From assembly GCA_017471445.1 (NCBI GenBank), contig JAFUTJ010000013.1:1-43810 (forward strand): 43,810 nucleotides of DNA. The letters are read 5' to 3'. The DNA is from Alphaproteobacteria bacterium (GTDB lineage Bacteria; Pseudomonadota; Alphaproteobacteria; Rs-D84). The notes beneath the pieces were generated by a model. It did not search any database and was not told the DNA's origin. It worked only from the letters and a program-made list of their open reading frames with translations. A program made the position numbers and the translations under genes. Numbering within the stretch: position 1 is the first letter of the stretch; each line of letters starts with the position of its first letter. Shown in pieces: positions 11,199-42,527 of this stretch.

Positions 11199-11445
11199 TA
11201 TACTTGAATCCGAACCCACAGGGATGTGTGGTTCGGGGACCTGAAAAATCCCAACAACAATGATACGTATGTATCAATCCGACTGATGAATATGTCGGCG
11301 CGGTTGCGCCATATATTTTATCGCCCGATTTTGTGGTCGGGGGTCCGTGGTTATAAAACAGGCATATGCCGAAAGCCCGGGGTCATTCTTGTTGTATGAT
11401 TTTTCAATCCCTGACCGCTGCATATTCTGTGGCGGCATTTTCATT
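11199..11445 (+). ncRNA. Structured 5' leader, copy A (candidate cis-regulatory RNA or sRNA)
   Basis: This 368-bp gap after dnaJ holds a -10-like TATACT (11199-11204) and then a string of hairpins. First is a long stem CCGAACC.CACA / TGTG.T.GGTTCGG with loop GGGA (about 11211-11235). A GGGA...TCCC hairpin and GATAC/GTATC, CCGAC/GTCGG, GGCGC/GCGCC and CCCGA/TCGGG hairpins follow. A closing stem GGTCA (11381-11385) / TGACC (11412-11416) encloses TATGATTTTTC. Last comes CCGC...GCGG (11415-11435) and a T-rich stretch, a weak terminator. Two other loci share this plan (copies B and C). It lies 35-45 bp upstream of a secreted-protein start. I do not recognise it as a known RNA class. Confidence 0.55.
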
Positions 11446-11479
11446 TAATGCCACCATAAAACAAACAAAAGGAGAATGT

Positions 11480-17829: not shown

Positions 17830-18041
17830 TATACTTGCCATGAATCAACAGGTATGTTGGTTTGGGACCTTAGACAAGTCCGTTAAGAAAGTATTCGCAA
17901 CAATATTGATTGTTGCATATGCCCCGCGTTTGTCGGGGTGTCGTCGGCGATACAACAGGTTTACCCCAAAAACTGGCGAGGTCATTCTTTCTTATGATTT
18001 GTCTAACACCCCGACCGTCATTCTTGTGACGGATATTTTTT
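17830..18041 (+). ncRNA. Structured 5' leader, copy B (candidate cis-regulatory RNA or sRNA)
   Basis: Within the 322-bp gap after the efflux operon, TATACT (17830-17835) precedes a hairpin AATCAACA-GGTA-TGTTGGTT, which matches the first hairpin of copy A in loop and position. Next come GGAC...GTCC, GCAACAA/TTGTTGC, CCCCG/CGGGG and GTGTCG/CGATAC hairpins. A closing GGTC (17980-17983) / GACC (18013-18016) encloses TTATGATTTGTC. A terminator CCGTCA-TTCTTG-TGACGG with six T (18015-18041) ends the element. The terminator shares two bases with the closing stem. The CDS starts 37 bp later. Confidence 0.6.
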
Positions 18042-18077: not shown

Positions 18078-19022
18078 ATGACAGGCAAATTATCATCGTT
18101 GTTTTCTGTATTGTTTGGTTTGATGTTGTTCTGGGCAAATGCAAATGCCGAATTACCAGAAAATGTAAAGTTCTGTATACCGAGACAATATAGGGTAACG
18201 TACGATTGTCCGGCGGGTGGGAATGCGCCAACGCAACAAAGCACCGCGTATGGTAATAACTTTACAACCGGTGTTGGTTGTAACAATGCGCCCGCATGGC
18301 GTGTGGGTGACAGTGACACAATAATTACATCAAACACAACAATTCCATACGCATATACGCACGACATTGTATTACACGCAGATTACAGTTCGTTATACAC
18401 AATTGCGGGTGGTAAACTGATTAATGCCGACCCAGATGTGTATTTGGAAAGCGCCGGAACGCAATATATTGATACAGGCGTTACACCAGAAAATAATATT
18501 GGTGTTTATACAGAATTTGCATTCAGTAAATTTCTTGATAGAGCAGGCGAAGGAGAGCATATTTTTGGGTCACTGTCACCGCATTATTATTGTGGTATCA
18601 CCACAAATAGTAATTTTGCGTGTGCCTATGGGCCGGGTGCTGGGTATGCGGCCGGTTTACATTTACCCGGAAATATTATTTTGGGTGAGTTTTATAAATT
18701 GTGGTTTAATTATAATAATTCTGGGCAAACCATCTTAAAAGGTGGTCCTGTTGACTACCTTTACACCATTAATTATAGGGATTTTGCCGGGAATAACAAA
18801 CATATTAACGTCTTTGCTAACAATAACACTTATTTTTCGGCTGTGCAAATTCGTAAATTGCAAATTACACAGGATGATACGTTAATACGTCATTTTGTTC
18901 CAATTCCGCGTGGTCTGCGCATTGGTGATTATGTGGTGCCCAGCAACGGTATGTGGGACATAATTGAACAACAATTTTACCCAAATTTGGGTACCGGTGA
19001 ATTTATTTATGGACGTGGGTAA
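18078..19022 (+). CDS. Secreted LamG/concanavalin-like domain protein
   Basis: A 314-residue protein with a signal peptide ending near ANANAE and a strong GGGAGG ribosome site. An N-terminal segment of about 100 residues contains four Cys (CIPRQYRVTYDC, GVGCNNAP). A domain beginning YLESAGTQYIDTGV, with a terminal block PIPRGLRIGDYVVPSNGMWD then YPNLGTGEF, matches a LamG-like jelly-roll pattern I recognise from secreted proteins of gut bacteria. The domain call is by pattern recognition only. Such domains usually bind glycans or proteins; ligand unknown. It follows structured leader copy B and precedes dnaN. Confidence 0.7.
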   Translation: MTGKLSSLFSVLFGLMLFWANANAELPENVKFCIPRQYRVTYDCPAGGNAPTQQSTAYGNNFTTGVGCNNAPAWRVGDSDTIITSNTTIPYAYTHDIVLHADYSSLYTIAGGKLINADPDVYLESAGTQYIDTGVTPENNIGVYTEFAFSKFLDRAGEGEHIFGSLSPHYYCGITTNSNFACAYGPGAGYAAGLHLPGNIILGEFYKLWFNYNNSGQTILKGGPVDYLYTINYRDFAGNNKHINVFANNNTYFSAVQIRKLQITQDDTLIRHFVPIPRGLRIGDYVVPSNGMWDIIEQQFYPNLGTGEFIYGRG

Positions 19023-29200: not shown

Positions 29201-29230
29201 TTTGGAAAATGGGTAAAAATGTGATATAAT
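29201..29230 (+). promoter_or_regulatory. Promoter of the outer-membrane barrel gene
   Basis: TTTGGA (29201-29206), 18-bp spacer, TATAAT (29225-29230) with an extended TGA element. Confidence 0.65.
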
Positions 29231-29267
29231 GCCAAGCAACATGATTTCAGCAAGAGGGAATGTAACC

Positions 29268-29981
29268 ATGAAAAAACTAGTTTCAACATTGGCAATAATG
29301 TTAATTGCGGCCCCGGCCATTGCGGCCCCCAGTTATCTGAAACGCGACAGTGACGGCGGTTATAACGTTACATACGATTACACGGACAAGGCGAAAACCG
29401 GTTGGTACGGCACCGCCCGCGCGGAATTAAGTTTTCTGAATTGGAAGAATAAATATTCAACCGATTATACCGGCGTATTTACAGAATACGGCAGTGACAG
29501 TTATTCCATGGAACCTGTATTCGGCGGGTCGTTGTCGGTTGGTCGTCGTTTTGGTTATTTTTGGCGTGGCGAGGTTGAAGCCGGCTATATCGGCAACTTT
29601 ACCGACAAAGATGACGGGTTTGAATTTGAATTGTCGATACCGTATTTAACGGCAAACGCATACTATGATTTTACATCTGGTCTGTACGTTGGTGCGGGAA
29701 TTGGTGCGGCCATGCCAACGACCAAGATGGACGGTTTATACTTTACAGATAATGGTAACCGCACGCATCGTGGGTTTGGTGTTGATGCCGGGGTGATGGT
29801 CGGATATTCACATAAATTGGATGATAACTTTGTATTGGATTTACGTTATCGCCTGGCCGGGATTAGTGGCGTAAAGCAAACCCGTGAAATCATGGATGCC
29901 ACCGACACGTATGACTTTCAGGTCAAGACAGGCTTCATAATGGATAATTCAATATCATTGGGTATCAGATATGAATTTTAA
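29268..29981 (+). CDS. Outer-membrane beta-barrel protein
   Basis: The start is at 29268 with an AGAGGGA site, giving 237 residues; the frame upstream to 29229 is leader sequence. A signal peptide (cleavage near AIAAPSY) precedes a series of amphipathic beta strands alternating aromatic and small residues (GWYGTARAELSFLNW, SVGRRFGYFWRGEVEAGYIG, YVGAGIGAAMP). The protein ends in Tyr-Glu-Phe, the C-terminal Phe signal for BAM-dependent insertion. This is the small 8-strand porin/OmpA-barrel type seen in alphaproteobacteria. It starts the surface-protein cluster 29268-36121. Confidence 0.82.
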   Translation: MKKLVSTLAIMLIAAPAIAAPSYLKRDSDGGYNVTYDYTDKAKTGWYGTARAELSFLNWKNKYSTDYTGVFTEYGSDSYSMEPVFGGSLSVGRRFGYFWRGEVEAGYIGNFTDKDDGFEFELSIPYLTANAYYDFTSGLYVGAGIGAAMPTTKMDGLYFTDNGNRTHRGFGVDAGVMVGYSHKLDDNFVLDLRYRLAGISGVKQTREIMDATDTYDFQVKTGFIMDNSISLGIRYEF

Positions 29982-29993
29982 CCAAAAAACCGT

Positions 29994-30022
29994 TTGGAGT
30001 GCGATTCGTTTTATGGTATAAT
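29994..30022 (+). promoter_or_regulatory. Promoter upstream of the surface protein gene at 30045
   Basis: TTGGAG (29994-29999), 17-bp spacer, TATAAT (30017-30022) with extended TGG, 22 bp before the ATG. Confidence 0.75.
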
Positions 30023-30044
30023 ATAACATCGGTAGAGAGAATAG

Positions 30045-31268
30045 ATGAAACACGAATATATAACATCTGCGATAACCATTGCATGTACGATATGCGCGAC
30101 AACGGCACACGGTGTGTCGGCGGTGCGTTCGTTGGGTGGTGTGGGAACATACGTGTCTGCGAATGCGGCGGCAAATTCCGTATCTGGGGCGAATGCGGCG
30201 GTCACAACGTCCGACGCGTCCGCGATGAATACCGGTGCGGTTGCCACGCGTGGTGGTGCGGTTCGTATAAACCCGGCGACAACGCGCACGACGACGGCTG
30301 CGGCCAAGACATCGGGTACGCGCACAACGGGGCGGGTGGCGACATCGCCACGTTTGTCCATTGGTAAATATTTGGGCGTGTCGGGTGTAAACGCCGGTGC
30401 GGGCCCCAGTGCATTGCGCGCCAATATCAATGCCGCGCCGAATGTTGCGGGTAACGTTGGTGCCGAAACGGCATCGGAATTGCGTTCGGATGTGGACAAC
30501 CTGCAACGCAGTGCCGAAGAATTTGCAGAACAGTTGGATAATAAACAGGACAAGTTAACATCGGATGCCAACGCGGGCGATTATATTGATATCAGTGACG
30601 ATGGTGAAATATCGGTTAATGTTAATGAATTAAAGAATGCGTTTATTGCCAATGCGGGTGATGGTGACCCAATCGAAATTGGTACTGACGACGATAATAA
30701 TCTGTTGTGGCGGTATGTTGGTGACGATGATGATAATTGGCGTGTTTTGGCAACGTTATCAGATATTGTTGGTTCAACCGACATGAATGCGGCGATTGTT
30801 GCGGCGGTTGATGCGGCCCGGGATGAAATAATGGCGGATGTTTACACCAAAACCCAGACCGACGAATTAATTGGTGAAATTGATAAAATAATCGGTGACA
30901 CCGATGATTTGGAAACCACAACACATGACAGTGTTGTTGCGGCGATAAACGAATTAAAGTCAACATCGGCGACATCTGGCGCATTGGATGAATTAACCGG
31001 TCAGGTTGATGATTTGCTGGATTACGTGGGTGATGAAACCTTGGAAACCACGGCGGACACAATCGTCGGTGCCATTAACGAGGTGCGTTCATACACATTA
31101 CCATTGGCCAACCCGATTTGTACGGCCCCATCAAACCTGTGCGTGTTAAGTATAAATGGTGATGGTGAATTGGAATGGGTTGCGGTAACGGAACCGGCGT
31201 ATGATACCACGCCTGTGCCGGTCTCTGGTGATGTGTCGGGCTCTGGTGATGTGCCGTACTATGAATAA
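30045..31268 (+). CDS. Secreted/surface coiled-coil protein with tail-fibre-like modules
   Basis: A 407-residue protein with an N-terminal export signal (about residues 1-25), then a low-complexity Ala/Thr/Gly/Arg region (30-110). A short block RLSIGKYLGVSGVNAG resembles SHIGIGKYLKVSG in the protein at 32634. A coiled-coil segment follows (ELRSDVDNLQRSAEEF), then LDNKQDKLTSDANAGDYIDI, a module like those of phage tail fibres and shared with the gene at 31327. Two related repeats, HDSVVAAINELKS and TIVGAINEVRS, come next. A C-terminal two-Cys block (NLCVLSINGDGELEW) is also shared with 31327. Likely a trimeric surface fibre or adhesin; this is inference. Confidence 0.65.
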   Translation: MKHEYITSAITIACTICATTAHGVSAVRSLGGVGTYVSANAAANSVSGANAAVTTSDASAMNTGAVATRGGAVRINPATTRTTTAAAKTSGTRTTGRVATSPRLSIGKYLGVSGVNAGAGPSALRANINAAPNVAGNVGAETASELRSDVDNLQRSAEEFAEQLDNKQDKLTSDANAGDYIDISDDGEISVNVNELKNAFIANAGDGDPIEIGTDDDNNLLWRYVGDDDDNWRVLATLSDIVGSTDMNAAIVAAVDAARDEIMADVYTKTQTDELIGEIDKIIGDTDDLETTTHDSVVAAINELKSTSATSGALDELTGQVDDLLDYVGDETLETTADTIVGAINEVRSYTLPLANPICTAPSNLCVLSINGDGELEWVAVTEPAYDTTPVPVSGDVSGSGDVPYYE

Positions 31269-31326
31269 CAAAAATCGGATTTAACAAAACAAACAACGAA
31301 ACAAACAAAACAAAGGAAGGAAAAAT

Positions 31327-32451
31327 ATGAAAAAATTAACATCAGGTATATTTGCATCAATGCTGGGGTTGGTTGCATTTGGTGCAAACGCAGAAATCGC
31401 ATCCAAGGGCTATGTTGATGCCAAGATTGCGTCGACGGGCGGTGATGTAACCGCATTGGATGCCCGGGTTACCACCAACGAAGGGGCCATAACATCATTG
31501 GCGAATAATATATCGACCGAAACAACCAATCGTACAAATGCCGACGATGCGTTGGGTGTACGTATTGATGGTTTGGCTGATGCCAAGCAAGATAAGTTGA
31601 TTCCGGGTAAACATATTGCGATTGCCGACGATGGTAAAACAATTACAACGACATATACCGGTACGGCACCAATCGTTATTGATGCGAATTCTGGTGCAAT
31701 CAGTTTGACAACAGATTCATCAATTACAGAATCAAACAAGACCAGTACAAATCCTGTTCAGACCAAGGCTGTATATGATTACGTTGATGGTTTGGTTGGT
31801 GATATTAATGCAACTGACCTGGCCGATGCATTGTCACAAAAGGTTGACAATGACACCTATGCTTCAGATAAATCGGCGCAATCCACAAAAGATTCGACAC
31901 AAGATTCGGCGATTGATGCCAGATTAACGGTTGCCGATTTTAACGCCGCCGATACAGACAGTATCGCCGTTGATAACAAGAAAATCAGCGTGACGTTTGG
32001 CAATGTTGACGAGAATAATACAACCACGGCTGTTACAGGTAAATCTGTTTACGATGCGATTGCCGCCGCCAGTAATGATGCCGGTGACGATATTTCATCA
32101 GAAGCGACAGCGCGTGAGTTCGCAGATGCATTGGAAAAGCAAAATCGTCAGGCCGCAGATAATAAATTGGTCACGGACTTAAACGCGGAAAAGGCCGCAC
32201 GTAAAGCAAATGACGATGCAATCATTGATTCATTGGGCACATTGGCAAATATCAGTGGCGCATGTTCAACCGATAATCAGTGTGTGTTGAAATTCGACGG
32301 CACCAACTTTAAATGGGAGGCCATAGAACGTGGCGAGGCCAGTTTCGAAGGGACAATTGACGAAACCGCCGCGACCCCAAAAACCCCCGCAACCAAAGCA
32401 ACGGTAACGGATACAACATTGCCGGCTGATTCGACGGGAGAAGCGGCCTAA
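31327..32451 (+). CDS. Secreted coiled-coil surface protein
   Basis: A 374-residue protein with signal peptide MKKLTSGIFASMLGLVAFGANA and AGGAAGGA ribosome site. The mature start EIASKGYVDAKIAS resembles tail-fibre trimer modules. Heptad-rich segments follow (VTALDARVTTNEGAIT, LVTDLNAEKAARKAND). The module ADAKQDKLIPGKHIAIADDG parallels the KQDKL module of the upstream gene, and the C-terminal CSTDNQCVLKFDGTNFKWEA parallels its terminal Cys block. It ends in a Thr/Pro/Ala-rich tail. The spacer before it is A/C-rich and unstructured. Probably an extracellular trimeric fibre; function inferred. Confidence 0.65.
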   Translation: MKKLTSGIFASMLGLVAFGANAEIASKGYVDAKIASTGGDVTALDARVTTNEGAITSLANNISTETTNRTNADDALGVRIDGLADAKQDKLIPGKHIAIADDGKTITTTYTGTAPIVIDANSGAISLTTDSSITESNKTSTNPVQTKAVYDYVDGLVGDINATDLADALSQKVDNDTYASDKSAQSTKDSTQDSAIDARLTVADFNAADTDSIAVDNKKISVTFGNVDENNTTTAVTGKSVYDAIAAASNDAGDDISSEATAREFADALEKQNRQAADNKLVTDLNAEKAARKANDDAIIDSLGTLANISGACSTDNQCVLKFDGTNFKWEAIERGEASFEGTIDETAATPKTPATKATVTDTTLPADSTGEAA

Positions 32452-32489
32452 ACCCGCGGGAAACGAATAATCGGGTGGGGTGGGTAAAT

Positions 32490-32503
32490 CCCCCCCCCCC
32501 CCC
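32490..32503 (+). repeat. Homopolymeric C14 tract upstream of the repeat-protein gene
   Basis: Fourteen consecutive C, preceded by GGGTGGGGTGGG (about 32473-32484), which can pair with the C-run. It lies 9 bp upstream of a candidate -35 (TTGACC, 32513-32518) with a TGTAAA -10 17 bp further on. This is a candidate slippage-prone tract. Confidence 0.7.
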
Positions 32504-32633
32504 GATAAATGATTGACCTTTGCGATAATGTTGGGTGTAAATACCCGAAACGCGCGCAAACAATTAAAAACAACAAAACAAACAACAAAATAAACCAACG
32601 GGGATTACAACGCAAAAATAAAAAGGAAAAAAT

Positions 32634-33725
32634 ATGAAAAAAACTTTGCGCACGGTTTCCATGATTGCGGTTGCATCCGTAATCGCATCCCCGTCGTTCG
32701 CCGCCGGTCTGGCATCCGGTGATTGGACTAACAAATATTTTGTTGACTTTGATAACGACTGGCCGGCTTCTACTGCTGCAGCTTCGGCGGACAAAATTAT
32801 AACCGCGGTTGAGTCAACTGGAAGTACGGGGGGTACAATTACTCGTAGTCATATTGGTATTGGTAAATACTTAAAGGTGTCGGGCGGAAATCTGGCTGGT
32901 GATTTGAGTGAAGAAGAGATAGCAATACCAACAGACTTTACATTTGATGCTGATGAAGCAACGGTCACGGTTACGGGAACGGTCGAAACCGCCACAACCG
33001 AAAACAAGGATATAACGATTGCAGGAACGGTCGAAACCGCCACAACCGAAAACAAGGATATAACGATTGCAGGAACGGTCGAAACCGCCACAACCGAAAA
33101 CAAGGATGTAACAATTGCGGGAACGGTTGAAACAGCAACAACCGAAAATAAAACGGTTGCAGTTCCAAAAACATATACATTTACCGGTACCGATACAACA
33201 GTTGCGGTTCCAAAAACATATACAGTCAGTGGTATTCCAACAACGGGTAGTGGCAGTGTTGATACTTGTTCGGGGGGCTCTGTATTACAGGGCACAGAAT
33301 GTGTCGGGGTTTTACAGGTATCAAATGGACAGTTTGATAATCCAACAGGCACTAAAACAAGTACAGGTGTTGTAATTCCCGGTGATTTGTCATCTATAAG
33401 CGTGGCAACAAATGAAACAGAAAATAAAACAGTTACGATTGCAGGAACGGTCGCAACCGCCACAACCGAAGATAAAACGGTTGCGGTTCCAAAAACATAT
33501 ACATTCACTGGTGTCGATACAACAGTTGCGGTTCCAAAAACATATACATTTACTGGTGCCGATACAACGGTTGCGGTTCCAAAAACATATACATTTACTG
33601 GTGCCGATACAACGGTTGCGGTTCCAAAAACATATACGTTTACCGCGAATCAGGCAACGGTTAGCGTTGAAGGTACGGTAACACCAACGGTTGAAAACAA
33701 GATTGTGCTGGTACCAAACAGCTAA
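32634..33725 (+). CDS. Secreted repeat protein with two tandem-repeat arrays
   Basis: A 363-residue protein with a signal peptide ending near SPSFAA. The mature N-terminus GLASGDWTNKYFVDFDNDW defines a motif shared with the proteins at 33828 and 35330. GIGKYLKVSG follows. It then carries four 16-residue repeats (GTVETATTENKDITIA; DNA period 48 bp, 32976-33167). The 15-residue repeat TVAVPKTYTFTGADT occurs twice at about 33156 and four times from 33480 to 33659, with a 45-bp period. A Cys-containing module (CSGGSVLQGTEC) sits between the arrays and resembles CASGYVLENGHC of the next gene. Repeat units are nearly identical at DNA level, so copy number probably varies. Likely a beta-rich surface stalk. 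Confidence 0.7.
   Translation: MKKTLRTVSMIAVASVIASPSFAAGLASGDWTNKYFVDFDNDWPASTAAASADKIITAVESTGSTGGTITRSHIGIGKYLKVSGGNLAGDLSEEEIAIPTDFTFDADEATVTVTGTVETATTENKDITIAGTVETATTENKDITIAGTVETATTENKDVTIAGTVETATTENKTVAVPKTYTFTGTDTTVAVPKTYTVSGIPTTGSGSVDTCSGGSVLQGTECVGVLQVSNGQFDNPTGTKTSTGVVIPGDLSSISVATNETENKTVTIAGTVATATTEDKTVAVPKTYTFTGVDTTVAVPKTYTFTGADTTVAVPKTYTFTGADTTVAVPKTYTFTANQATVSVEGTVTPTVENKIVLVPNS
32976..33167 (+). repeat. In-frame tandem repeat, 48-bp unit, four copies
   Basis: Units start at 32976, 33024, 33072 and 33120. The first three are almost identical; the fourth is diverged and runs into the 45-bp repeat family. Confidence 0.92.
33480..33659 (+). repeat. In-frame tandem repeat, 45-bp unit, four copies
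   Basis: Units start at 33480, 33525, 33570 and 33615, each beginning GTTGCGGTTCCAAAAACATA. Two further copies lie at 33156 and 33201. Confidence 0.92.
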
Positions 33726-33827
33726 TCACGATAATCGCGGCCATTGGAAACAGTTTCAGCGGGCTGTCGGGTAAAGTCGGCGGTTCGGTAGATAACAATA
33801 ACAAAACAAACAAGGGAAAGAACAAAC

Positions 33828-34790
33828 ATGAAAAAATTAAAACTTTTGACTGTTTCACTGGTCGCGATTGCATCCGTAACGGGTGGCGCGGCGTGGGGCG
33901 CGAATGACGAAAGTAACCTGCCCAACCCATCGGGTGTGGCATCGGGTTCCTGGGTTAATAATTACTTTGTTGACTTTACCGATAACGATTGGCAGAAAAA
34001 GAAAGATACCAGCACACTGGAAAAAGGTAAAAAGTTACAAATCCTTACCGGGGTCAAGAATATTGAGCAGTCATCGGATGATCCGGAAATGTTCCAAAAA
34101 TATGGTAAACATATTCAACCGCAATATCGTGAGGCAAATTTTATTCTGGATAAAAATGGTGATATAACCGCAGATGCGAATATAGAGGCCGGTATCGCAA
34201 CATCAGTAACGGATACTGATAACAATGGCTATAAAGAAGTAAATGTTGTTTATGATGATGAACGTGGTTTAGATGTTGACGACGATAATAAATTATATAC
34301 CGAAATCGCAAAGTCGCATTCCGCCCCACGTACCAAGGCCGAAGCAACCAAGGCAATGGCAAACACTAACAATGCGTTGTATGTTGATGGCGATAACGGT
34401 TTACACGTAATGTATGATGGTAAAACCATTTTTTATGGCGAGAATGGATTGGAAACGGCCCCAACGATGCCGGCATTCCCAACGGTTTCAACCGAATGTG
34501 CCAGCGGTTATGTTCTTGAAAACGGTCACTGTGTATTATTGTTGACCGCTGACCAGGAACAATTCCCAACAGATGCCGACCATTACAGGGACAAAGCTAT
34601 TGTTGCACCGAAACTTTTGAGTGTTACTGCTGCTCAGCGATATATTCAAGGCCCCGTACGCTTAACAAATGCGTCTGGTGACACAACAACATTTGACAGT
34701 TTGGACCGTGCAACTGGCTTGAAAGAGATATTGGCTAACTCTGAGACCGCAAATGCCACGTTGAGTACTATACTGGAAAATGCGCGTTAA
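33828..34790 (+). CDS. Secreted protein of the GDWVNKYFVDF surface family
   Basis: A 320-residue protein with a signal peptide ending near AAWGAN and an AGGGAA ribosome site in an A/C-rich leader. The mature N-terminus GVASGSWVNNYFVDFTDNDW is the family motif. An Asp/Asn-rich middle (VVYDDERGLDVDDDNKLY) resembles LYNDEKGLDVENYQDN of the protein at 35330. A two-Cys module (CASGYVLENGHC) follows and the end is helical. No enzyme motif. Probably surface-located with its paralogues; exact role unknown. Confidence 0.65.
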   Translation: MKKLKLLTVSLVAIASVTGGAAWGANDESNLPNPSGVASGSWVNNYFVDFTDNDWQKKKDTSTLEKGKKLQILTGVKNIEQSSDDPEMFQKYGKHIQPQYREANFILDKNGDITADANIEAGIATSVTDTDNNGYKEVNVVYDDERGLDVDDDNKLYTEIAKSHSAPRTKAEATKAMANTNNALYVDGDNGLHVMYDGKTIFYGENGLETAPTMPAFPTVSTECASGYVLENGHCVLLLTADQEQFPTDADHYRDKAIVAPKLLSVTAAQRYIQGPVRLTNASGDTTTFDSLDRATGLKEILANSETANATLSTILENAR

Positions 34791-34828
34791 TCACGAAAAA
34801 AACTTGTCTATTCTTTCATGTGTGTGTT

Positions 34829-34855
34829 TCCCCCGTTCCACGGGGGGGATTTTTA
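34829..34855 (+). terminator. Terminator after the surface gene at 33828
   Basis: A CCCCG-TTCCA-CGGGG stem extended by neighbouring C/G bases, followed by ATTTTTA. Confidence 0.75.
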
Positions 34856-34864
34856 TTCATGGTC

Positions 34865-35270
34865 TATAATTGTGGATGGTGTGTGAAAATCCGTTCTTTT
34901 TTATGGTGGGTGACGTGGCACCGTAACGCTATGTTGACGGCAATTGGATGGTGTTGGTCGGTATTGTGTTACGCCGGGACAGTATAGATTGGTGACCGGT
35001 GGCCCACTGTACCACCGGTGAATTGTACCCACAATTTGCATCCAATTCATGGATGAACCGGCAGAGAATAACAAAATGCCTGTGGCGCAACGCCCGTTGC
35101 ACCGGTGTGCCGGGGGGGGCGGTTGTGCCCCCCGACGCGGACGCGCCAAGTATCCAAATGGATGGGGATTTCATGCCTGTCACATGCATCATTCCCAAAA
35201 TTATAAATCCGCAACCATAATTTCCAACCACCAACAACCATATAAAATATTTTTTATTTATTGCATTTAA
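34865..35270 (+). ncRNA. Hairpin-rich intergenic region, possible non-coding RNA
   Basis: The 539-bp gap 34791-35329 holds no convincing gene. After TATAAT (34865-34870) there are many stems. They include GGAT...ATCC (34873-34891), ACCGGTGG/CCACCGGT, AATTGT/ACAATT, CATCCA/TGGATG, GCAACG/CGTTGC, GGGGGG/CCCCCC and ATCC/GGAT. GC content is well above the flanks over 34915-35160. It lacks the RNase P, SRP and tmRNA landmarks I looked for. Strand is chosen from the -10-like box only. Confidence 0.35.
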
Positions 35271-35274
35271 GGTC

Positions 35275-35303
35275 TTGCCCGGCGATTCGCAAAATGGTAT
35301 AAT
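35275..35303 (+). promoter_or_regulatory. Promoter of the surface gene at 35330
   Basis: TTGCCC (35275-35280), 17-bp spacer, TATAAT (35298-35303) with extended TGG, 26 bp before the ATG. Confidence 0.8.
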
Positions 35304-35329
35304 GTGCATGAAATTTGGATGTAGGATTC

Positions 35330-36121
35330 ATGAAAACAAGTGCGTTATTATTTACGGTTATTATGTGTTCTGTGGCGGGAACATGGGCGGCCAATGCCGC
35401 GCCGGCGGCCGGTGTTGCCGGTGGTGACTGGGTAAATAAATATTTTGTTGACTTTACGTATCATGATCACCGGGATGTTCATGCCACGGATATCGGTCTT
35501 AATAATAATTCGGAGTCTGCAGCCGGGCAATGGAGGATGTATGTTAATACTACGCGCACTGATTGGTCTCAACAGGAAAAACAAGAAAAATCAGCTGGGG
35601 CTGGTGTTGTAATTGGTGTTGATGGAAACCAGGCCGATGGCACAGTTGATGTTAATAAAAGTACAGCAGTGCCGGTTAGTTGGATTTCTGGTGCAGTCCA
35701 GGCCGACGGTATTGCAACCGACTACAATAACAATTCTAACGTGGCCCAGGTTGATTGGCTATATAATGACGAAAAAGGGTTGGATGTTGAAAATTATCAA
35801 GACAACAGTGGTAGTACAAGAACCCGCGCAGTGGTCAAGGTTGATGGAACAACCGTAAAATTTAATACGTCTGGTCAATTACAGGCCGCAGGTATGGCGG
35901 ATGTTGAATATAAAAATAATGTAAGTGGTACAACATCAACATCAAATGATGTCAATAATTACAATACATCTGCAAACAAGGGGATGATAGTCAGTTCTGT
36001 TGAAAAGATAACACAGGCAAATGGTGATACAAAACTGCGTGCAACATTGGATAATATCAAGGTCCCGGTTGGCAGTGCAACAGTCACAAATAAATATGCC
36101 ACCATTTGGATAGAAGATTGA
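35330..36121 (+). CDS. Secreted protein of the GDWVNKYFVDF surface family
   Basis: The start is placed at 35330 (MKTSALLFTVIMC signal peptide); the frame begins five codons earlier at 35315, but that lies next to the transcription start. The product has 263 residues. After the signal peptide the motif GVAGGDWVNKYFVDFTYHD matches its two upstream paralogues. The body is Asn/Ser/Thr-rich with beta character and a segment VDWLYNDEKGLDVENY shared with the protein at 33828. No Cys module is present, unlike the paralogues. It has its own promoter and a terminator, so it is transcribed alone. Confidence 0.68.
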   Translation: MKTSALLFTVIMCSVAGTWAANAAPAAGVAGGDWVNKYFVDFTYHDHRDVHATDIGLNNNSESAAGQWRMYVNTTRTDWSQQEKQEKSAGAGVVIGVDGNQADGTVDVNKSTAVPVSWISGAVQADGIATDYNNNSNVAQVDWLYNDEKGLDVENYQDNSGSTRTRAVVKVDGTTVKFNTSGQLQAAGMADVEYKNNVSGTTSTSNDVNNYNTSANKGMIVSSVEKITQANGDTKLRATLDNIKVPVGSATVTNKYATIWIED

Positions 36122-39448: not shown

Positions 39449-40456
39449 ATGGCACATCAATTCTTTTTTAATCCGTATATATTGGACAATTTGCCCGCGC
39501 CACGCAGTGGATTTGATGTTGTCCAAGATGTATCAGAACCGCGCCTGCGGATGTATATAACGTCGCATGGTATAAAAACATTTTTTGTGCGAAAACGCAT
39601 AAACGGGTGTGACCGCCGTGTTATCATCGGTAAATACCCAGATATGGATATTGAAGACGCACGCAGCGCGGTGCAAAGCGTATTAGATGTTGCAATGCAG
39701 AAGCCAATTGTACGCCGTAAAAAATTAACCTTTCGTCAGGTGTTGGATTTGTATCTGGAAAATCGTGTACGTCGTGGCGAAGATTCTAAAACCAAATTGA
39801 TACGTGCGATAAATCGGCACTTTGTGCAATTGTTTGATAAAAACATTTGTGATATAACTGTGACGGATGCGCGCGCCGTTATTGATGCGATTTCTGGGGC
39901 GGCCATCGCGGCACGTATGCAGGAATTAATGCAAAGTGTTTTTAAGTATGCGGTTCAAACCGGTTACCTAAAAAATAATCCGATATCTGATTTACCAAAA
40001 ATTCCCCAACATCGGCGTACGCGGCCATTAAATCGCAGTGGCATGCAACGGTTAATTGCGGCAATTCGGCGCGAACCATCCGATGTCTTTCGTGCGGCGT
40101 TTTTAATGCTGATTTATGGGTTTGCGCCGCGGTCACGTGTGTTTTCCATGCAATGGGAAGAATTGGATTTTAACCAGTACATGTGGCGCGATATGCCGTT
40201 ATCAGATGCGGCGGTTGTATTATTACAAGATTTACCACAATACAGTACTTTTTGGGTATTCCCTGGTCGCGGCAGTCATTTGACAGATCCACGTACGGCA
40301 TGGCGGCGTGTTGTAAACATGGCTGGGATTCCGAATCTAACAATGGATGATGTGAATAAATTTATGATGCGAAACCTAATCTGGGCCCCAGACAAGGAAG
40401 ATTTGCGCGCAAACATGAATGCATTAATCGAAGAAATTACATCGTCAGATTTTTAA
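39449..40456 (+). CDS. Tyrosine-recombinase-like protein with degenerate catalytic domain
   Basis: A 335-residue protein with the layout of phage-type integrases. An N-terminal arm-binding region (residues 30-70: SHGIKTFFVRKRINGCDRRV, IIGKYPDMDIEDA) precedes a SAM-like core-binding domain (about 90-185) and a catalytic-like domain. The first catalytic Arg region is recognisable (FAPRSRVFSMQWEELD) and FPGRGSHLTDPRTAWRRV is conserved. Where integrases carry H-x2-R the sequence reads DDVNKFMM, and no Tyr nucleophile follows; the protein ends about 40 residues later. It is probably inactive as a recombinase and may be a DNA-binding protein. No att repeats or cargo flank it. Confidence 0.78.
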   Translation: MAHQFFFNPYILDNLPAPRSGFDVVQDVSEPRLRMYITSHGIKTFFVRKRINGCDRRVIIGKYPDMDIEDARSAVQSVLDVAMQKPIVRRKKLTFRQVLDLYLENRVRRGEDSKTKLIRAINRHFVQLFDKNICDITVTDARAVIDAISGAAIAARMQELMQSVFKYAVQTGYLKNNPISDLPKIPQHRRTRPLNRSGMQRLIAAIRREPSDVFRAAFLMLIYGFAPRSRVFSMQWEELDFNQYMWRDMPLSDAAVVLLQDLPQYSTFWVFPGRGSHLTDPRTAWRRVVNMAGIPNLTMDDVNKFMMRNLIWAPDKEDLRANMNALIEEITSSDF

Positions 40457-42270: not shown

Positions 42271-42527
42271 TATAATATCTGATATTATATCTGTGTCGTG
42301 ATTGTTCTTTGGTCACGATGGGGTGTGAAGACCCGTATTATAAGCGTCAATGTACTTTGGTGGGCGCGGTGCGTCTTTTTTGTACGTTGGCTGATGTGTT
42401 AAAGGGAAATCTCCTGGCGTTCTGATATTTGAATGGTTCAGGAGGGTTGCGAATATACCGAATCAGCAACACAAACGCTTATGATTGTCTTCAACCTCCT
42501 GGCCACTGAAATGTTAGTGGCATTTTT
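42271..42527 (+). ncRNA. Structured 5' leader, copy C (candidate cis-regulatory RNA or sRNA)
   Basis: The 351-bp gap after fabF carries -10-like boxes (TATAAT 42271, TATTAT 42283). A TCGTGA/TCACGA hairpin (42296-42318) is followed by GGGT...ACCC. A long closing stem CAGGAGG (42439-42445) / CCTCCTG (42495-42501) encloses an inner GTTGC/GCAAC hairpin and CTTATGATTGTC. A terminator GCCACT/AGTGGC with five T (42502-42527) follows directly. The order and the 3' TATGATT block match copies A and B. The next CDS starts 28 bp downstream. Confidence 0.6.

Follow-up and report, generated by a model that had tools for sequence, protein, structure and literature searches.

A structured RNA family in leaders of secreted- and surface-protein genes of an alphaproteobacterium is related to sRNA-Xcc1 and may derive from phage-type antisense attenuators

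Three intergenic regions in a 43,810-nt stretch of an alphaproteobacterial genome (the window, taken as the whole stretch analysed) each lie ahead of a gene for a secreted protein. What kind of RNA do these regions encode, and how might it act on the gene that follows?

One family of structured leaders

The common plan that the first-pass annotation had read in the three regions was found at its places in all of them (copies A, B and C; Table 1), and each folded far better than its dinucleotide shuffles (z of -4.84, -4.72 and -5.86 for A, B and C, respectively; 0 of 200 shuffles as good). The 5' hairpin of that description is P1. The short G-rich hairpin is P2, the loop of which is an antisense site, a1, and the closing stem around a TATGATT motif is a long-range helix between a1 and a strand of the core, a'. 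The terminator-like hairpin ahead of the gene was found as a terminator (T2) in A, B and C. The -10-like boxes were also present (TATACT in A and B), but a scan for sigma-70-type promoters passed zero pairs at these two copies. The vicinity of copy C gave 6 promoter-like pairs over both strands, with a mean of 1.1 in shuffles.

Table 1. Features of the three leaders and their downstream genes (window coordinates)
Feature	Position	Strand	Basis or remark
Copy A, -10-like box TATACT	11199..11204	+	sequence; no full sigma-70 pair found
Copy A, P1 5' hairpin CCGAACCCACAGGGATGTGTGGTTCGG	11210..11236	+	sequence
Copy A, P2 hairpin with a1, loop TGAAAAAT plus CAACAACAATGA	11236..11264	+	
Copy A, T1-like hairpin GGCGCGGTTGCGCC, weak U-run	11297..11310	+	
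Copy A, P6 hairpin, competitor of P8	11324..11341	+	8 P6 pairs, full fold
Copy A, C4/sRNA-Xcc1-like core	11335..11416	+	R1 84.6 bits; covariation
Copy A, core parts	P8 11335-11343/11407-11416; P7 about 11345-11381; a' 11382-11406	+	
Copy A, intrinsic terminator T2	11415..11435	+	
Gene A, Cys-rich, signal peptide, 255 aa	11480..12247	+	no Pfam match
Copy B, -10-like box TATACT	17830..17835	+	sequence
Copy B, P1 5' hairpin	17843..17863	+	MFE fold
Copy B, P2 hairpin with a1, loop TTAGACAA plus GTTAAGAAAG	17864..17891	+	
Copy B, P6 hairpin	17922..17938	+	fold
Copy B, C4/sRNA-Xcc1-like core	17931..18016	+	RF02221 30.4 bits; R1 106 bits
Copy B, core parts	P8 17931-17940/18007-18016; a' 17981-18006	+	
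Copy B, intrinsic terminator T2	18015..18032	+	
Gene B, signal-peptide protein, 314 aa, 'AELPENVKFCIP' paralog group	18078..19022	+	
Copy C, -10-like box TATAAT	42271..42276	+	sequence
Copy C, P1 5' hairpin	42295..42319	+	MFE fold
Copy C, P2 hairpin with a1, GTGAAGAC plus CGTATTATAAGCG	42321..42347	+	duplex -13.0 kcal/mol
Copy C, T1 terminator-like hairpin, between a1 and core (IsrK-type position)	42362..42376	+	
Copy C, P6 hairpin	42411..42445	+	fold
Copy C, C4-like core, divergent subtype	42435..42504	+	R1 32.7 bits, E 5.1e-6
Copy C, core parts	P8 42435-42445/42495-42504; a' 42476-42494	+	
Copy C, intrinsic terminator T2	42502..42521	+	
Gene C, Cys-rich, signal peptide, 248 aa	42555..43301	+	

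The annotation had proposed building a covariance model, searching related genomes with it and testing for covariation. A model of the leader core (R1), trained on 12 copies with A and B in and C out, recovered A, B, the untrained C and 26 further places, which brings the total for the 0.91 Mb assembly to 29 (E<1e-4). The shared family was thus confirmed, and its size corrected from three to about 29 copies. BLAST with copy B as the query likewise returned many relatives within the same genome, and the entire plan of copy A is common to one paralog (L007). Beyond this genome, R1 matched 58 of the 60 genomes from the same family and 88 of the 96 from the order. Matches were rare elsewhere, with 7 among about 140 other genomes in the class and almost nothing in the rest of the phylum. 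Copies per genome in the order range from a few to about 50, with a maximum of 56, which was reached in the same family.

Standard pairs occupied 97.7% of the pair cells of the core in 65 aligned loci, a score that is somewhat favoured by an alignment that had been fitted to the core structure, and 23 of 24 core pairs had changed on both sides. None of 500 shuffles reached any one of five measures of covariation, and sliding the partners by 1-3 columns lowered the pairing to 35-49%. The annotation's central claim, a shared structured RNA before secreted-protein genes, is backed by this covariation and by copies that precede non-homologous genes; the three leaders are members of one structured RNA family. 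The description of gene B as 'LamG-like' was not confirmed, since its protein had no match in Pfam and its AlphaFold model (pLDDT 34.6) was unusable.

Relationship of the core to sRNA-Xcc1

Rfam at gathering thresholds matched no family over the window, riboswitch and leader families included. At a relaxed threshold copy B again gave no credible riboswitch or leader family, and it matched RF02221 (sRNA-Xcc1) over the whole model (1-87 of 87; 30.4 bits, E 0.0013). A paralog (L002) aligned full-length at 40.2 bits. The top RF02221 score in this genome was 52.7 bits; the gathering threshold is 53 bits, and the window copies fall short of it. Within the same family RF02221 was found in 45 of 60 genomes, versus 1 of 14 control genomes, and only one locus exceeded the cut-off (58 bits).

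The full-length consensus structure of RF02221 is present in the leaders: an outer helix that starts from GG, P7 with an AUACAA..GAA internal loop, the a' hairpin and a linker. The length and order of these parts agree, the helices covary in the 65 loci, and alignments over the full length, from this genome and its family, score 30-58 bits. Kinship of the leader core with sRNA-Xcc1 is therefore well supported, and the earlier statement that no described RNA fits does not stand: the 3' core is distantly related to sRNA-Xcc1, and the layout is that of phage c4/a1b1, P4 CI/seqA and IsrK. The window family is unlike sRNA-Xcc1 in having P1, P6 and a strong T2, in being without a2, and in preceding surface genes, whereas sRNA-Xcc1 precedes ant, KilA-N or symE genes. 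The C4 model (RF01695) did not match this genome at all at E<=1, and a search of this genome together with nine relatives gave a single weak match, in a relative. sRNA-Xcc1 has been described from integron cassettes of Xanthomonas, where it is an sRNA upstream of symE (PMC12444791). An integron attC site was considered because of these cassettes and was rejected, the RYYYAAC/GTTRRRY motifs being inconsistently present by reading. An HDV-like ribozyme, prompted by the GG helix with which the sRNA begins, was rejected on its strand order, which does not fit.

We then asked what sRNA-Xcc1 itself is. A scan of about 85,000 genomes with a pattern built on the conserved internal loop of this RNA gave 62 stretches (L031-L092), mostly in Proteobacteria; of the scan loci checked against RF02221, 18 of 18 were true matches. 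Many sRNA-Xcc1 loci lie directly ahead of antirepressor-looking genes, with Bro-N confirmed for one. The RNA adjoins, on the upstream side, the 'anti-repressor Ant' gene of Pasteurella phage Pmp3, and it is located directly upstream of 'ant' in phage Aaphi23 and of a KilA-N gene in Acinetobacter phage 4316. In 32 of 51 loci of this type the antisense strand matched the upstream a1 of its own locus best, and in 27 of 51 the a2 of that locus, adjacent to the start codon, ranked first. An IsrK-like terminator followed a1 in 40 of 61 loci and a terminator followed the core in 4 of 61. This arrangement of a1 and a2 is that of P1 c4, P4 CI and Salmonella IsrK (PMC5320573, PMC4825925, PMC2864571), and sRNA-Xcc1 should therefore work like C4. 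Because of its a1 and a2 sites and the terminator after a1, sRNA-Xcc1 looks like a phage antirepressor-control RNA and not a free-standing virulence sRNA, and it thereby gains a likely function.

C4 and sRNA-Xcc1 are still two distinct Rfam models. In an array of Neisseria weixii (L088, 4505-5651), RF02221 copies alternate with isrK, c4-a1b1 and C4 matches, those of isrK and c4-a1b1 being below their cut-offs; this alternation suggests that the isrK-, C4- and sRNA-Xcc1-type families are parts of one superfamily. Two of the sRNA-Xcc1 loci (L048, L069) precede phage-like genes on JAMPER010000001.1, which is labelled Alistipes senegalensis (Bacteroidota) and probably carries a wrong label or belongs to a wrong bin. 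L051 and L062, from MAGs labelled Telmatospirillum and Acidobacteriia, have the same predicted downstream protein (73 aa, same start), a case of contamination or recent transfer.

Predicted pairing of a1 with a' and a two-state fold

Complementarity was counted by exact matches of a' to its own versus swapped sites, in place of a duplex-energy test that the GC-rich outer helix had inflated. The leader's own a1 was the best match to a' in 53 of 63 loci of the window type, and an own a2 near the start codon ranked first in 0 of 63. With a2 absent, the mode of action of P1 c4 cannot apply. By energy within this genome, the own a1 was best in 24 of 29 copies, and a foreign a1 paired equally well in about five. 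Copy A has 21 a1:a' pairs in its MFE fold and a duplex energy of -19.2 kcal/mol; in copy B (-20.5 kcal/mol) the own a1 was better than those of all other copies.

Copy A and L007 are nearly identical except for the two P4 strands, which are those of the a1:a' helix and still pair, the P5 and P6 loops and the terminator stem. L127 and L132, the leaders of orthologous genes in two species, differ chiefly at the two P4 strands, plus one variable-hairpin loop, and these strands have changed together with pairing kept (ATCATTG:CAATGAT versus ATTGCAG:CTGCGAT). Over 33 close pairs the core was 88% identical and the specificity loop only 48%; the diversity of a' over all paralogs (53% versus 67%) was, unlike this comparison, not decisive. 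Judged from these sequences, a helix that merely holds the fold together would not be expected to change faster than every other part. The c4 RNAs of P1 and P7 also differ at sites of this kind (PMC5320573), and by analogy the specificity differences among near-identical leaders resemble those of hetero-immune phages. Since a1 and a' vary between copies, most copies should regulate themselves only.

T2 follows the core in 48 of 65 window-type loci (4 in shuffles). T1 was weak in this genome, at 9 of 29 versus 5.5 in shuffles, and far above shuffles in other genomes (24 of 36 loci). The P6 hairpin competes with the outer helix, P8, the first pair of which is G-C in 64 of 64 distinct rows. When full transcripts were folded, a1:a' formed in 29 of 29 and P8 in 0 of 29; when the core was folded alone, P8 formed in 27 of 29. 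Nested folding cannot hold both helices, and the folds therefore give a two-state model, short of proof of switching, in which all 29 copies are predicted to be two-state switches. In these predictions T2 was slightly shorter when P8 formed, a difference too small to decide the sign of control.

We consider the leaders to be domesticated antisense attenuators of the C4/P4-CI/IsrK type, with one private specificity per surface gene (probability about 0.6). One promoter would give a transcript that carries a1 (in and just past the P2 loop), the core, T2 and the surface gene, with the a' strand of the core complementary to a1 of the same leader. In the full transcript a1 would pair with a' and P6 would form, and if a1 were missing or occupied, P8 would form and the core would adopt the compact C4 fold. 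After termination the core would probably be trimmed at the GG of its 5' end, as RNase P does in known C4 RNAs, and would accumulate as an sRNA and bind a1 on fresh transcripts of its own locus, which would alter read-through at T1 or T2 and so set the expression of that single surface gene. Trans action, RNase P processing and the sign of control would follow the known systems by analogy; negative feedback is a first guess from P1 c4 and P4 CI, and positive feedback is possible, as in IsrK. The annotation had offered a cis-attenuator and an sRNA family as alternatives, and probably both are true, since systems of the C4/CI/IsrK type are leader and sRNA at once.

The nearest known systems differ in instructive places. 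P1/P7 c4 and c4-a1b1 (RF01695, RF03163; both listed in PMC2864571) have in common with the window family a processed antisense RNA cotranscribed with the controlled gene, processing and cotranscription being presumed for the leaders; in P1/P7 c4, too, the antisense strand complements an upstream a1, and few nucleotides carry the specificity (PMC5320573). Unlike C4, the window family is without a C4 model match and without a2 at the ribosome-binding site, and has surface or secreted genes downstream with no antirepressor gene adjoining. P4 CI, from a system with seqA, seqB and seqC, is an RNA cut from a leader that pairs with an upstream site and controls transcription termination (PMC4825925). 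Compared by description, the window family is without a downstream seqC-like site; P4 CI is the closest functional analogue, because in the leaders too the antisense pairing seems to be aimed at a terminator and not at the start codon. Salmonella Gifsy-1 IsrK (RF01394), which acts in trans on its own mRNA, consists of an a1-like 5' RNA and a terminator, followed by a C4-like RNA and an antirepressor gene (PMC4825925). The a1-like part followed by a C4-like RNA with complementary sequence is the same in the leaders, whereas their main terminator comes after the core, and T1 is mostly decayed here and clear in other genomes. The group 1 C4-like sRNAs of Acinetobacter baumannii are amplified within one bacterial genome, vary in their a' strands and have a GG at which processing begins (PMC5320573); they are described as free sRNAs, whereas each member of the window family is a surface-gene leader with its own a1.

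An attenuator or riboswitch-like element working purely in cis is unlikely. In such an element a1:a', P6 and P8 would be alternative folds of the nascent RNA that respond to a ligand, a protein, the temperature or the speed of transcription, and no sRNA would act in trans. A two-state fold with a terminator ahead of the gene is a typical attenuator layout, but the paired strand changes fastest while the rest is constant, a pattern that does not follow from a ligand sensor. The conserved P7 internal loop (ATACAA..GAA) could be a binding site, yet no riboswitch family matched. A purely cis helix would covary as well, which counts against the trans reading, whereas kinship with phage antisense RNAs argues for it.

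Downstream genes and possible control of the cell surface

Of the 64 loci in which the start could be read, 63 had an open reading frame with a Shine-Dalgarno-like sequence, usually 37-64 nt downstream of P8. By a strict rule 21 of the 29 downstream genes in this genome encode a signal peptide, and by reading nearly all do; a looser heuristic was dropped, since 23 of 36 ordinary window genes passed it. Other downstream genes of the family encode GT8 and GT92 glycosyltransferases, a Stealth-type sugar phosphotransferase and a PAP2 phosphatase (Pfam), and those of a few loci (such as L107, L126 and L146) have no obvious surface role.

These positions bear on whether the RNAs could be orphan C4-like sRNAs that act on other mRNAs or, as superinfection immunity, on transcripts of infecting phages, the place before surface genes being incidental or a preferred insertion site. 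The same role was proposed for the many C4-like sRNAs of A. baumannii (PMC5320573), and sRNA-Xcc1 RNAs were found on phages. In nearly every copy, however, and over 13 genera, the core of the leader ends in a terminator 20-60 nt before a start codon, and each leader keeps a1 in cis. The scattered outlying copies, in other alphaproteobacterial families, also precede outer-membrane, autotransporter-like, pseudopilin and polysaccharide pyruvyltransferase-like genes (by reading). We regard the orphan role as quite improbable. That leader and gene were simply duplicated jointly, with no special function of the RNA, is barely credible: many downstream genes are indeed paralogs of one another, but this account is contradicted by the two leader subtypes, each of which precedes both main protein groups in the same genome, by leaders on unrelated genes and by the strong covariation.

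If the leaders are domesticated antisense attenuators, they might in addition be mutually orthogonal, self-recognising switches, each an 'immunity group' of its own, that give every surface gene an independent and heritable ON/OFF state. This extension is tentative and on the doubtful side; if it were true, a genome of 0.9 Mb could support a varying cell surface with no change in DNA. Antisense RNA immunity switches have been described from phages. Here a whole alphaproteobacterial order appears to use antisense switches as gene-specific leaders of secreted and surface genes, which, if true, would clearly exemplify the conversion of a phage regulatory RNA into a host system of surface control. 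It raises the testable question of whether many copies of one antisense switch can work side by side without cross-talk. In the open-access papers searched, neither antisense leaders of surface genes nor a tie of sRNA-Xcc1 to antirepressor control was found.

Further signal-peptide genes stand in a run at 29229-36121 of the window, one of them with a match to an outer-membrane beta-barrel domain just below the cut-off, and the R1 search found no C4-like leader there. A long near-perfect inverted repeat at 469-585 of L005 gave a chance match to a microRNA model. A 16S rRNA search of this assembly was negative. About 1.8 kb before copy C, at 39449-40456, the window encodes an integrase of the tyrosine recombinase type (Phage_int_M, partial Arm-DNA-bind_3), which may be the remnant of an integrated element.
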